From: Novosphingobium barchaimii LL02
GTDB taxonomy: Bacteria; Pseudomonadota; Alphaproteobacteria; Sphingomonadales; Sphingomonadaceae
DNA: 64,000 nt
Direction: 5' to 3'
Assembly: GCF_001046635.1 (NCBI RefSeq)
Contig: NZ_KQ130456.1
Coordinates: 282,013 to 346,012, forward strand
Below, in pieces: positions 37,433-41,624 of the stretch. Positions within the stretch are counted from its first letter, which is position 1. Each line of letters begins with the position of its first letter. The position numbers and the translations under genes were made by a program. The notes under the pieces are model-generated. The model did not search any database and had not been told where the DNA came from. It worked only from the letters and a program-made list of their open reading frames with translations.

Positions 37433-38557
37433 TTACCGGATGCCCATGGCGGTGCGGATCGAACGCCAGGACAGCAGCTTGAAGTTCTGCGCCTTGGGGG
37501 CGTTGTTGCCGTCCTGCGCCATGAACACGCCTTCGGGGAAGGCCGGGCCGAAATCGCCGAGCACGACTTCGATGCCGTCGGTGTCGCTGGTGCCGCCGAT
37601 CGCGCCGCCTTCGACGCGGAAGCGGCCAGCGGGCTTGCCGGTTTCGGCGTCGAACAGCGCATAGGCATTATCGCCCTGGCTGGAGGCGACGAGCCAGGTG
37701 TGGCCGTTCGCTTTACGCGCTATGGCAAGCCCCTCGACATCATCGACGAGACCGTCCGCCGCACCGACTTTTGCGAAAGGCTGCGCGGTGAGGGCGGCGC
37801 CGGAAAGCGGCACCTTCCAGATGCCCACGTCCTCCTCGGCGACGTAAAGCGTCTTCCATACGTCATCGACGACGCAGCCCTCCGACTGGGTCGCGAACTT
37901 CACGTCGCGCAGGTGCTGGGGCACGATCCTGCCACCGTTTTCGACGAGGCGACTTTCCGCCACGGTGCCGTCCTTGAGGACGACATAGGCGCGCGCCAGT
38001 TCACCGGCGGCGAGGGGAGCGCCCATGCAGAAGCCGTAAGCCTCGGCCGGGGCATGGCCCGGCTTGAGGAACGAATCGGAGCCCAGCACGGTCAGCTTGC
38101 CGGTGGCGCCGTCGAGACTGAACAGCGCGATGCGCGGCTCGGTACGGTCGGTACGGTCGCTGGCGCCCACGAGGATGCGCGTCGAACCATCAGCCAAGCG
38201 CACTTCGCGCAGGTCGGTGTTGTTAAGCGCGCCTGCGGGCGAGAAATCGCGCACCGTGCCGTCGAGGCCGTAGACGTAGAGACCGGCCTTCTTGTCGGTG
38301 CCCAGCAGCAGGCTGGCGGCGGGGTTGGCGGCGTTGCGCCAGATCGCCGGATCGTCCGCGGCATCGGCATCGCCGGTGCCGACCGGGACGGTCTCCGCCT
38401 CGGCAGGAATGTCGGTTGCGGGATAACGGGGGCGCGCAGCTTCGGTTTCTGCTCCGGTGCCAGCCGCAGTGGTTGTGCAGGCCGAGAGCAGGAGCGCCGG
38501 GAGCAATGCTCCCGGCCCAACCTTCGCGGCAACCTTCAGGATGTCGCGTGCGTGCAT
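37433..38557 (-). CDS. beta-propeller phytase (3-phytase) lipoprotein
   Basis: A 374-residue beta-propeller phytase, which releases phosphate from phytate using calcium. Signal peptide ends LLLSACTTT (Cys27). Family motifs are DADAADDPAIWRN, GLYVYGLDGTVRDF, NNTDLREV, EGCVVDDVWKTLYVAEEDV, and DDVEGLAIAR with DTDGIEVV, which carry the calcium and phosphate ligands. Its ATG overlaps the stop of the upstream receptor gene (TGATG), so the two are coupled. It is expected to work on the cell surface or in the periplasm. Confidence 0.92.
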   Translation of the reverse strand: MHARDILKVAAKVGPGALLPALLLSACTTTAAGTGAETEAARPRYPATDIPAEAETVPVGTGDADAADDPAIWRNAANPAASLLLGTDKKAGLYVYGLDGTVRDFSPAGALNNTDLREVRLADGSTRILVGASDRTDRTEPRIALFSLDGATGKLTVLGSDSFLKPGHAPAEAYGFCMGAPLAAGELARAYVVLKDGTVAESRLVENGGRIVPQHLRDVKFATQSEGCVVDDVWKTLYVAEEDVGIWKVPLSGAALTAQPFAKVGAADGLVDDVEGLAIARKANGHTWLVASSQGDNAYALFDAETGKPAGRFRVEGGAIGGTSDTDGIEVVLGDFGPAFPEGVFMAQDGNNAPKAQNFKLLSWRSIRTAMGIR

Positions 38558-41337
38558 CAGAAGGTAACCCGCGCGCCGAACTTCACGGTCGAGCCATATT
38601 CCTCGTACTGCAGGACGCGCTTGGCATCTGCGAGGTTCTGGTAGGCGAAGTACTTGGCATTGTTGACGTTCACCCAATCCGCAAAGATGCGGATGTTGTC
38701 GGTGATCTTGTACTTGGCCGAGAGGTCCAGCTGGAAGTGCTGGTTGACGGTGCGATCGGTGTCAGCCGAATCGCCCACCTCGTCCAGGTACTTGTCGCGG
38801 AAGGTGCCGGCAGCACGCAGGCTGACGGGGCCCTTCTCGTAGCCGAGCACGACGTTGAAGGTGTTCTTCGATGCGTTGGGCAGCGAGATCCGGCGAGCGA
38901 CGTCGTCACTGTCGAACACGGTGCCACGGGCATAAGTGTAGGTGTAGTTCAGCTGGGTCAGCAGGCCGTCGAAGGGCGAGGGCAGCATCGAGAAAACCTG
39001 GCTGTAGCTGACTTCCACGCCGGCGATCTCGGCCGTGTCGCCGTTCACCGGCATCAGCACTTCGTCATAGGTCACGCCGTCGATCGTGTAATCGTAGAAG
39101 CGGCGGTCGACCGAGTAATCCTTGATCGACTTGTAGAAGCCGCCCACCGAGAACGCACCGTTGTTGGCGAAATAGTACTCGAAACCAGCGTCGAAATTCC
39201 ATGCCTGGTAGGGCTTGAGGTTCGGGTTGCCGAATTCCGCCTCGAGGTCCTCGTTAACGGTGAAGCGCGGCGCCAGCTGCGAGAGCTTGGGACGCACGAT
39301 CGTCTTGTAGCCGGCAAAGCGGGCAACGAGGTTCTGCTCGGGGCTGTAGCGCAGGGTCAGGCTGGGCAGCCAGTTGGTGTAGTTGCGCTTGTACTGGACC
39401 GGGTCGACGGTGATGGTGTCATCGCCGTTGTCGGTGGTCAGGAAGCCGTTCAGCTCATTGTGGGTGCGCTCCATGCGCACGCCGCCAATGACGCGCAGCG
39501 TCGAGCTGTCCCAGCGGGCCATCGCATAGCCGGCCTGGATGTCTTCACGCACCGAGTAGTCGCTGACGGCCGAATTGAGCGCGCTTTCATAGTCGTTGAC
39601 CACGAAGTCGCCGGGGTTCGCCAGCAGATAGTCGGCCGGGCCGCCCTTGCTGGACACCGGCCCCATGTCGAGCAGGCGGTAAGTCTGCGAACCCAGCACG
39701 TCGGCCAGGGTATAGTCCGTGTCGTCGGCCGCTTCGTAGTAGGTCATGTTGAAGTCGTAGGACTTCTTGCGCCAGCGCGCCTTGCCGCCTGCCTGAATGG
39801 TGAAGTCACCGTCCGAACCGGCGAAAGTGCGGGCGAGGTCGGCCTTGATCGCCCATTCCTCGTCCTGGCTGTCGGACAGGGTGGTCAGCTCGGTCTTGTC
39901 GAATTCGTACTCGGAGGCATCGTTGAACGTGTCTGCGCCCTCGGAAACCGAATAGGTCGGATAGTACGTGTTCGAGTAATCCATATCGACCGTCGTGCCG
40001 GCGCGGAAGCGGGCGCGGAAGCGGGTCGGGTCGATGGAGAAAGTCTCCTTCTCGGAAGACTTGGCGTAGCTGCCCTGCCAGTTGAACTTCAGCGTGCCCG
40101 TGTCGGTGTCGCTGCCGATCGAGACGGAGCGGATGCGCTGGCGCTCGAAACGATCCTTCAGGTCGCGCTCGACGGTAATGCGCTCGTCGCTGCCGTCGAA
40201 GCTGGCGCCGGTGTCGGAGATGCTGCTCGGGCCGTCCCCGAAGTCGCCGAAGTCGAGAGTGGTGCGGCGGCGATATTCATGGTCGTCGAACTGCGCCCAG
40301 TTGCCGCGGATATAGGCCTTGGTCGTGTCCGAGGCACGCCAGTCAGCCGAAAGCGCGGCGTTGATGCGGGTACGCTCGACGTCATAGTCGCGGTACTCGA
40401 CGCTTTCTGCCCAGGCCTGGCCATCGTCGTTGGTCTGCCACCCGCCGGTCTCGACGTTGTCGGTCTCGAACTTGCGCTTGTAGTAGCTGACCGAACCGGC
40501 GACGCCGAAATCGTCGCCGATCTTCTGGGTGAAGTCGAACGCGCCCTTGGGCATGACCTTGCCCGAGTAGTCGTTGTAGCTGCCTTCAGCGCTGACCGAG
40601 TAGCGGTTCTTCTTCGAATCGAAGGCGCTGGTGGTGTTGATCTCGACCGAGGCGCCGATGAAGTCGCCGTCCATGTCGGGGGTGAAGGACTTCTTCACTT
40701 CGATCGATTCGATCGTGTCCGAGGAGATCACGTCGAGCGCGACCGAACGGGCATCCGATTCGGGTGCAGGCATGCGCACGCCGTTGACCGAGGTGCCGTT
40801 AAGGTCCGGGTCGAGGCCCCGAACGGAAACGTAACGGCCTTCACCCTGGTCGTTGAGAATGTTGACGCCCGGCAGGCGGCGCAGCGATTCGGCCACGTTC
40901 TGGTCGGGGAACTGGCCTACGGCATCGCGCGTCAGGACCGATTCGATGCCGTCGGCGGCCTTCTGGCGTGACAAGGCGCTGGTCAGGTTCGCGGTCTGGC
41001 CGGTGACGAGGATGTCGGCGCCGCCGATTGCGGTAAGGTCGAAGTCACCCGGGGTCGTGCCGGTCGCTGCGACGGTGACCGTCTGCGTGGTGACTTCCGC
41101 ACCGACATAGCGGGCTTCCAGGGTGTAAGTGCCCGCGGGGACGTCGCCGAACACATAGCTGCCCGCACGGTCGGTTTCGGCGGTTCGGTTAAGTTCGACG
41201 ATGCGCACGGCGGCCGACTGCAGGGCGCGCGTGCCGGTGGAATCGCTGACGTGGCCGGCAACCTCGCCCGCGTGGGCGATGGTGGCGAACGAGGCCGAGG
41301 CGAGCAGCCCCGCAAGGAGCTGGATCGAACGTGTCAT
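38557..41337 (-). CDS. TonB-dependent receptor, putative phytate/inositol-phosphate uptake
   Basis: A 926-residue outer-membrane receptor. Signal peptide (to AHA), a carboxypeptidase-regulatory-like domain (about 25-100), a TonB box DILVTGQ (108-114), the plug (FPDQNVAESLRRLPGVNIL, YVSVRGLDPDLNGTSVNGV) and a long barrel ending KFGARVTF are present. The type is like the TonB receptors paired with beta-propeller phytases in sphingomonads and Caulobacter. Coupling to the phytase gene and the Pho-box-like repeats upstream suggest it imports phytate or its products under phosphate starvation. The start at 41337 is chosen for the signal peptide. Confidence 0.92.
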   Translation of the reverse strand: MTRSIQLLAGLLASASFATIAHAGEVAGHVSDSTGTRALQSAAVRIVELNRTAETDRAGSYVFGDVPAGTYTLEARYVGAEVTTQTVTVAATGTTPGDFDLTAIGGADILVTGQTANLTSALSRQKAADGIESVLTRDAVGQFPDQNVAESLRRLPGVNILNDQGEGRYVSVRGLDPDLNGTSVNGVRMPAPESDARSVALDVISSDTIESIEVKKSFTPDMDGDFIGASVEINTTSAFDSKKNRYSVSAEGSYNDYSGKVMPKGAFDFTQKIGDDFGVAGSVSYYKRKFETDNVETGGWQTNDDGQAWAESVEYRDYDVERTRINAALSADWRASDTTKAYIRGNWAQFDDHEYRRRTTLDFGDFGDGPSSISDTGASFDGSDERITVERDLKDRFERQRIRSVSIGSDTDTGTLKFNWQGSYAKSSEKETFSIDPTRFRARFRAGTTVDMDYSNTYYPTYSVSEGADTFNDASEYEFDKTELTTLSDSQDEEWAIKADLARTFAGSDGDFTIQAGGKARWRKKSYDFNMTYYEAADDTDYTLADVLGSQTYRLLDMGPVSSKGGPADYLLANPGDFVVNDYESALNSAVSDYSVREDIQAGYAMARWDSSTLRVIGGVRMERTHNELNGFLTTDNGDDTITVDPVQYKRNYTNWLPSLTLRYSPEQNLVARFAGYKTIVRPKLSQLAPRFTVNEDLEAEFGNPNLKPYQAWNFDAGFEYYFANNGAFSVGGFYKSIKDYSVDRRFYDYTIDGVTYDEVLMPVNGDTAEIAGVEVSYSQVFSMLPSPFDGLLTQLNYTYTYARGTVFDSDDVARRISLPNASKNTFNVVLGYEKGPVSLRAAGTFRDKYLDEVGDSADTDRTVNQHFQLDLSAKYKITDNIRIFADWVNVNNAKYFAYQNLADAKRVLQYEEYGSTVKFGARVTF

Positions 41338-41392
41338 GACTGGAGAGGTTCCCTGTTGCGACGTTGTAAGTCTTGCAGGCGCCCCTAGGCGG

Positions 41393-41437
41393 GTTTCATG
41401 ACACTCCGGTGAGAGTGCAAAGACAGTTTGATGACAA
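41393..41437 (-). promoter_or_regulatory. tandem Pho-box-like repeats (PhoB sites) upstream of receptor-phytase operon
   Basis: On the minus strand four units repeat every 11 bp: TGTCATCAAAC (41436-41426), TGTCTTTGCAC (41425-41415), TCTCACCGGAG (41414-41404) and TGTCATGAAAC (41403-41393). The first two form TTGTCATCAAACTGTCTT, 15 of 18 positions matching the Pho box CTGTCATAWAWCTGTCAY. The 11-bp spacing is that of PhoB direct repeats. The last unit ends 55 bp before the receptor ATG. Confidence 0.75.
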
Positions 41438-41452
41438 TTGGGATATCCCAAT
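41437..41452. promoter_or_regulatory. 16-bp perfect palindrome next to Pho boxes
   Basis: ATTGGGATATCCCAAT is a perfect palindrome beginning at the edge of the Pho-box repeats, 100 bp before the receptor ATG. It is a candidate for a second regulator's operator. Confidence 0.45.
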
Positions 41453-41549: not shown

Positions 41550-41624
41550 TGGTGCTGCTAGGGAGGATTGAACTCCCGACCTCGTCATTACCAATGACGC
41601 GCTCTACCACTGAGCTACAGCAGC
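41550..41624 (-). tRNA. tRNA-Thr (GGT)
   Basis: A full cloverleaf can be drawn on the minus strand: acceptor GCTGCTG with TAGCAGC (last pair G-U), D stem GCTC/GAGC, anticodon stem CGTCA/TGACG with loop TTGGTAA, and T arm GGGAG-TTCAATC-CTCCC. The anticodon is GGT, reading threonine ACC and ACT codons. Discriminator A and an encoded CCA (41550-41552) follow. Confidence 0.97.

Follow-up and report, generated by a model that had tools for sequence, protein, structure and literature searches.

Organization of the locus

We analyzed a 64,000-nt window from the genome of Novosphingobium barchaimii LL02, in which the genes of a TonB-dependent receptor and of a beta-propeller phytase follow each other on the minus strand, downstream of an array of 11-bp repeats (Table 1). 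The receptor presents both the plug (PF07715) and the barrel (PF00593) of the family and scores 574.9 bits against TIGR01782 (cut-off: 310), a subfamily to which many non-iron receptors belong. Its only kin by sequence in the PDB are the colicin I receptors (best match: 3.8e-08), and this match, limited to the plug region, says nothing on the cargo. The phytase matches its family profile at full length (PF02333; 9.1e-66; profile positions 10-358 of 375) as well as the structure of a Bacillus phytase (3amr; 5.9e-52; residues 50-374), with which the motifs DAADDPAIW, KK-GL, Q-EG, AEED--IWK, D-EGL, SSQG and GTSDTDGI align. We take these motifs to line the active site, with its phosphate and calcium sites. 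The nearest named loci belong to Novosphingobium, and the phytase is 92% identical to that of Novosphingobium sp. 18050. The identities of the receptor (PF00593, PF07715 and TIGR01782) and of the phytase, which the initial annotation had already proposed, are firm on these matches.

The phytase carries a signal sequence ending in LLLSAC, which presumably corresponds to a lipobox motif, and the protein is therefore probably a lipoprotein. By eye, a lipobox-like sequence was seen in many phytases of the same genus and a plain signal peptide in others. The stop codon of the receptor (TGA; 38559-38557) and the start codon of the phytase (ATG; 38557-38555) have one base in common. The receptor start given in the list of open reading frames (41463) would make the gene run through the array, and we preferred the ATG at 41337. 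This codon begins an apparent signal peptide (judged by eye) and orthologues of the same receptor class (class A, defined below) align there.

Table 1. Features of the receptor-phytase locus (positions are those of the window)
Feature	Position	Strand	Description and evidence
Beta-propeller phytase	37433..38557	-	374 aa, probable lipoprotein (LLLSAC; lipobox by eye); PF02333, 3amr
TGATG junction	38555..38559	-	receptor stop and phytase start, one-base overlap
TonB-dependent receptor	38557..41337	-	926 aa, N-terminal CarboxypepD_reg, class A; PF00593, PF07715, PF13620
TAGGGG, proposed -10 element	41382..41387	-	separated from the last TGTCAT by exactly 10 nt; same spacing in pstS promoters of 14 of 20 relatives
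Four-unit array	41393..41436	-	11-bp PhoB-type half-sites, equal to two Pho boxes end to end; direct reading, pstS matrix, same-genus orthologues
Unit 1 of array	41436-41426	-	TGTCATCAAAC
Unit 2 of array	41425-41415	-	TGTCTTTGCAC
Unit 3 of array	41414-41404	-	TCTCACCGGAG
Unit 4 of array	41403-41393	-	TGTCATGAAAC
tRNA-Thr (GGT)	41550..41624	-	upstream neighbour

A four-unit array of 11-bp repeats precedes the operon

The array sits in the gap between the tRNA-Thr gene and the receptor start. Read on the minus strand, its four units are contiguous, head to tail, with no gap and in one register, and they present the TGTCAY-N5 direct repeats at 11 bp that characterize Pho boxes. Unit 3 is weak: with TCTCAC, it constitutes a poor half-site, which counts against a reading as a PhoB site. 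The last unit lies 55 nt and the first unit 99 nt from the ATG of the receptor. The initial annotation had described four minus-strand units with an 11-bp period, a first pair matching 15 of 18 Pho-box positions, a distance of 55-100 bp to the receptor and a receptor stop overlapping the ATG of the phytase; direct reading (41436-41393) bears out each of these statements, the match of the first pair to the E. coli Pho-box consensus extending over 41420-41437 with three mismatches and the overlap amounting to one base. It had also drawn the feature from 41393 to 41452, but the units end at 41436 and the remainder holds a 14-bp palindrome. Its emphasis fell on the first pair, which is real; however, the pair that faces the promoter consists of units 3-4, and the -10-like element had been missed. 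The palindrome is perfect (TTGGGATATCCCAA; 41438-41451) and adjoins the array, and near-copies of it were seen by eye in only two (L031 and L032) of the 26 loci aligned.

The E. coli Pho-box consensus finds one match in the window against 0.24 expected, and at least one match was also obtained in 23 of 100 shuffles. A scan with this consensus alone was thus rejected as evidence and, since its match is no better than chance, we built a matrix from the promoters of another gene.

The array resembles pstS promoters of the same lineage

We located pstS, a standard PhoB target, in 20 relatives (by PF12849 in locus L197, and by phmmer searches with the pstS of L197 in the others). Upstream of pstS, 14 of the 20 relatives present a last half-site followed, after exactly 10 nt, by TAGGRG, and six do not show this layout. 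The matrix spans 44 positions and was derived from 14 pstS promoters (L197-L208, L211 and L216), down-weighted for relatedness; L210 was left out as a spurious training site. When both strands of the window were scanned, the array ranked first with 29.1 bits at 41382-41425 on the minus strand, a position that comprises units 2-4, the spacer and TAGGGG. The best non-overlapping sites of the window reached 7.9 and 7.8 bits. All of 20 random windows with matching dinucleotide frequencies remained below the array (maximum: 16.7 bits), and in G001, the nearest relative, the upstream regions of 30 other receptors (the best 30 of 150 plug matches) reached no more than 8.4 bits. The array still ranked first with the half-site hexamers alone (19.4 against at most 16.8 in random windows) and, by a small margin, with the 28 nt of the units alone (20.7 against at most 19.5). 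A scan with a PhoB weight matrix, which the initial annotation had recommended, therefore places the site first in the window when the matrix is taken from pstS promoters. The significance of the array comes from this ranking and from its conservation, not from the E. coli consensus match.

In E. coli, PhoB-dependent promoters have no -35 element: the Pho box stands in its place, about 10 nt from the -10 element. The array and TAGGGG show this same arrangement, with a fixed spacing and no -35 element, and we propose that TAGGGG is the -10 element of a PhoB-dependent promoter. Between 36500 and 42000, a scan for sigma-70 pairs found none. A terminator scan returned five candidates against 4.0 expected.

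Conservation of the array across phytase loci

We searched 148 relatives, of which 57 presented a phytase match. Two of these genomes were left out (G037, with a weak match and stops, and G143, with a match of 46 residues), and the remaining 55 genomes provided 57 loci for the analysis. A receptor gene lies just upstream on the same strand in 46 loci and is divergent in seven. No receptor was seen in four: L070, where the contig ends, and L075, L081 and L082, for which absence was judged with one receptor query (E 1e-5) and by inspection of open reading frames. The same-strand partner receptors fall into five classes, A to E, three of which occur in the genus (single linkage at 38% identity and 75% coverage), although A and D are not sharply apart since identity drops to 32% within class A and reaches up to 38% for an A-D pair.

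Among the 15 class A loci of the genus, 14 score above every control receptor with the pstS matrix; the exception, L036, scores 5.1 bits although an array is visible. TAG is found at the expected place in 14 of the 15 (the exception being L033, with TACGGG), as compared with two of the best matches of the 30 control receptors with the same matrix. The array exceeds the controls in 6/16 class B loci (in one of which, L068, it is far from the start), 2/6 class C, 1/2 class D and 0/2 class E loci, and the best match has TAG at the expected place in 11/16 class B and 4/6 class C loci. L057 was read for its junction and stood outside this scoring. In class A outside the genus, L074 and L077 fall below the threshold with no convincing site, whereas L071 (8.8 bits) and L079 (16.1 bits) exceed it with a different layout. 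These scores indicate that the array is plain in class A, visible in part of classes B and C, and not demonstrated elsewhere. The conservation of the repeats in orthologous loci, which the initial annotation had set as a check, consequently holds for class A within the genus but is not demonstrated in L071, L074, L077 and L079.

A second set of 80 named loci, drawn partly from the same genomes, contained 56 same-strand receptors, 13 divergent ones and 11 that were absent or cut. An in-frame one-base overlap was present in 49 of the 56 same-strand loci (47 TGATG and 2 TAATG), and 39 of the 55 upstream regions scored exceeded 8.4 bits, some of which had a different layout.

Several loci depart from the common organization. 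In L067 (G079:C1:39844-42179), a match to the PhoX family (PF05787) starts 143 bp after the end of the phytase match, and the operon may thus be ordered as receptor, phytase and phosphatase. L075 (G012:C1:37000-45600) encodes a same-genus double-domain phytase with no adjoining receptor seen; upstream of it lie an apparent response regulator and sensor kinase (identified by eye), recalling the UrpRS system of Caulobacter. Seven double-domain phytases were found outside the genus (L072, L073, L076, L078, L080, L081 and L082), and in five of these loci the receptor gene is divergent.

Similar arrays in the genomes of relatives

We searched ten genomes of relatives for the four-unit pattern with at most three mismatches and found 48 places, against five for the reversed control. 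Ten of these places are phytase operons, which are the best or tied best in each genome; because the pattern was drawn from the array of the window, these ten matches are partly circular, whereas those in pst regions are not. Eighteen places (16 arrays, two of which were found in two registers) fall in the pst regions examined, which were 12 to 17 kb wide, the region of G007 having been extended to include a match. Two further places precede phoX matches by about 550 nt, in one case on the other strand, and the remaining 18 are outside the phytase operons, the pst regions examined and the phoX neighbourhoods. We also tried a pattern of two units and TAGRGG in six genomes. Although pstS and phytase sites were among its matches, it was discarded as not specific, since it found 84 places and the reversed pattern 68.

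The pst locus of G001 contains pstS, a PstC-type permease, PhoU, a PhoB-like regulator and a phosphate-selective porin. Near the pst genes, the PhoB-like regulator has an array before its estimated start (L197:1865-1908), which suggests autoregulation. In the same locus, pstS and the porin (PF07396) are divergent, with a separate array of 11-bp repeats for each direction (L197:11433-11944). The array on the porin side is inside the 5' part of the longest porin open reading frame, ahead of the PF07396 match; the true start of the porin is therefore probably further in. The 6.6-Mb genome of G001 also presents at least 150 TonB receptor plug matches (172 candidates, 150 of which were scored).

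Different receptor classes behind a constant phytase

Within the genus, phytases that are close in sequence are found behind very different receptors. Receptor identity is at most 34% between class A and classes B or C and at most 28% between B and C. In three pairs of loci, the phytases are 80.9% (L044 and L049), 78.8% (L045 and L046) and 76.1% (L045 and L047) identical, whereas the receptors are only 27.5%, 28.0% and 28.7% identical, respectively. The junction is the same throughout: a TGATG overlap after a terminal TTC codon was found in all 38 same-genus same-strand loci and in all three classes, with L048 (divergent), L070 (cut) and L075 (no receptor seen) standing outside this count. On a phytase tree of 58 rows, we counted at least seven changes of receptor class among the 39 same-genus rows, or six among 38 rows when L069, which belongs to class A but falls among class B rows, is removed. 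The hypothesis that the 16 class A rows are held together on this tree was rejected (P = 1.5e-07), for a grouping that was chosen after the tree had been seen.

With phytase and junction constant within the genus, the receptor seems to be exchangeable. It is conceivable, but we advance it only tentatively and at somewhat less than even odds, that the PhoB promoter and the TTC-TGATG junction form a slot into which very different receptors were repeatedly swapped within a single genus. Alternatively, the changes of class might have arisen if an older operon carried several tandem receptors and lost them differentially, or if the phytase was transferred into other receptor loci. The tree is unable to tell which gene moved, and a second receptor does lie upstream of the phytase-linked one in L247 and L248; these second receptors, however, are close to none of the classes A to E, and the 14 class B or C loci that were read further upstream never combine receptors of classes A, B and C in tandem. 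Although this sample is small, it does not support simple loss from a tandem operon, and we regard loss or transfer as a possible but somewhat unlikely origin of the pattern. In a search of titles and the beginnings of abstracts, covering few subscription papers, we found no description of receptor exchange beside phytases.

If receptors have been exchanged, three very different receptor classes should share a cargo, which would constitute a natural test of what the cargo is. If the promoter and junction do act as a slot, the role of the phytase would be constant while the receptor would track the form of phytate of the habitat (free, bound to Ca or Fe, or lower inositol phosphates), and phytate transport would have arisen in several receptor lines.

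Proposed function and alternative explanations

From the site, its likeness to pstS promoters and its conservation, together with the gene families and the junction, all of which are read in the sequence, we infer PhoB binding, the arrangement of its dimers, induction at low phosphate, coupled translation, the cargo and the membrane side of the phytase. When phosphate is scarce, two dimers of phosphorylated PhoB would bind in tandem to the four half-sites. The one further downstream, on units 3-4, would end near TAGGGG and recruit RNA polymerase, replacing the -35 contact. One mRNA would serve the receptor and the phytase, with translation coupled through TGATG. The receptor would then import phytate, either intact, partly dephosphorylated or complexed with metal, across the outer membrane with the energy of TonB, and the membrane-anchored phytase would strip off the phosphate, which would enter through PstSCAB. 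We assign a probability of about 0.85 to the reading of the receptor-phytase pair as a PhoB-controlled operon that obtains phosphate from phytate. The initial annotation had interpreted the pair as a phosphate-starvation-induced phytate scavenging system, and the present analysis supports this interpretation. That phytate, in any of the forms named, is the cargo of the receptor appears fairly probable.

Phytate binds Fe and Ca strongly. It is conceivable that the operon is driven by PhoB but that the receptor takes up iron or another metal, either released from phytate or bound by it, the phytase working outside or serving for metal release. The solved structures found by sequence, which are colicin I receptors only (3.8e-08, in the plug region), and the very different sequences of the partner receptors would agree with such a cargo. 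Yet membership in TIGR01782 (574.9 bits), with its many non-iron receptors, and a promoter control of the phosphate type both speak against it, and phytic acid has been proposed as the cargo in Citromicrobium on the basis of a phytase neighbour (PMC3400609, available part). On balance, we consider uptake of a metal unlikely.

Other explanations concern the repeats themselves. OmpR-family regulators often bind tandem repeats, and another regulator of the OmpR/PhoB type, dedicated to the operon as UrpR is, might bind the array, in which case phosphate would not be the signal or not the only one. An apparent two-component pair, seen by eye, does accompany the double phytase of G012 (L075), and the available part of a study of Caulobacter reports that UrpRS regulates the phytase CCNA_01353 (PMC8963506). 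Against this, the site is best matched by the pstS-promoter matrix, like arrays are found in pst regions and beside phoX, and no regulator was seen by eye next to the operon among the adjoining open reading frames of at least 100 aa in the window, so that a different regulator seems improbable. The repeats might also be due to chance, or represent an upstream repeat of a general kind that plays no part in regulation, and taken by itself the E. coli consensus match is indeed not significant; however, the site ranks first with a matrix from another locus and far above the 30 control receptors, and its register and spacing are conserved, which makes this explanation extremely improbable.

Phytate constitutes a large store of organic phosphorus in soil, and the analysis points out receptors whose likely cargo is phytate or one of its products. 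It also provides a description of the PhoB promoter in Novosphingobium and related bacteria (half-sites at 11-nt intervals followed by 10 nt and TAGGRG), and the full matrix should aid the prediction of Pho regulons in these bacteria.

Comparison with known systems

Receptor-phytase neighbours and the induction of such a pair by low phosphate are already published, as far as the available parts of the literature go, and this kind of operon is known. In Flavobacterium johnsoniae, the phytase Fjoh_1367 and the TonB-dependent receptor Fjoh_1368 are induced by low phosphate (PMC8115612, available part). As in the window, a receptor and a PF02333 phytase are co-localized; this is, however, a Bacteroidetes system whose expression was measured according to that part of the paper, whereas the promoter of the window is read from sequence alone. 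The window operon does not resemble a SusCD-like phosphate utilization system of Bacteroidetes, in which a SusD-like surface lipoprotein accompanies the receptor, since the gene coupled to the receptor belongs to PF02333 and not to a SusD family.

Citromicrobium is a member of the order Sphingomonadales. In Citromicrobium bathyomarinum JL354, a TonB-dependent receptor adjoins a phytase and phytic acid has been proposed as its cargo (PMC3400609, available part). The adjacency of receptor and phytase is the same as in the window, but the available part of that account includes neither a promoter analysis nor receptor exchange. The PhoB regulon of Caulobacter crescentus comprises pstSCAB, TonB receptors and a phytase (PMC11208175, available part). 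It likewise places a phytase and TonB receptors under an alphaproteobacterial PhoB; the one-base-overlap operon and the four-unit array, both present in the window, do not appear in the available part of the account. The Caulobacter phytase has also been tied to the two-component system UrpRS (PMC8963506, available part).

With respect to the promoter, the pstS promoters of relatives share with the window the 11-bp half-sites, the 10-nt spacer and TAGGRG, but they were scored over three units and their spacer mostly ends in CCAA, whereas the window presents four units and a spacer ending in CGCC. A promoter of the E. coli phoA type has one Pho box and a TATAGT-like -10 element, whereas the window presents two boxes and TAGGGG.
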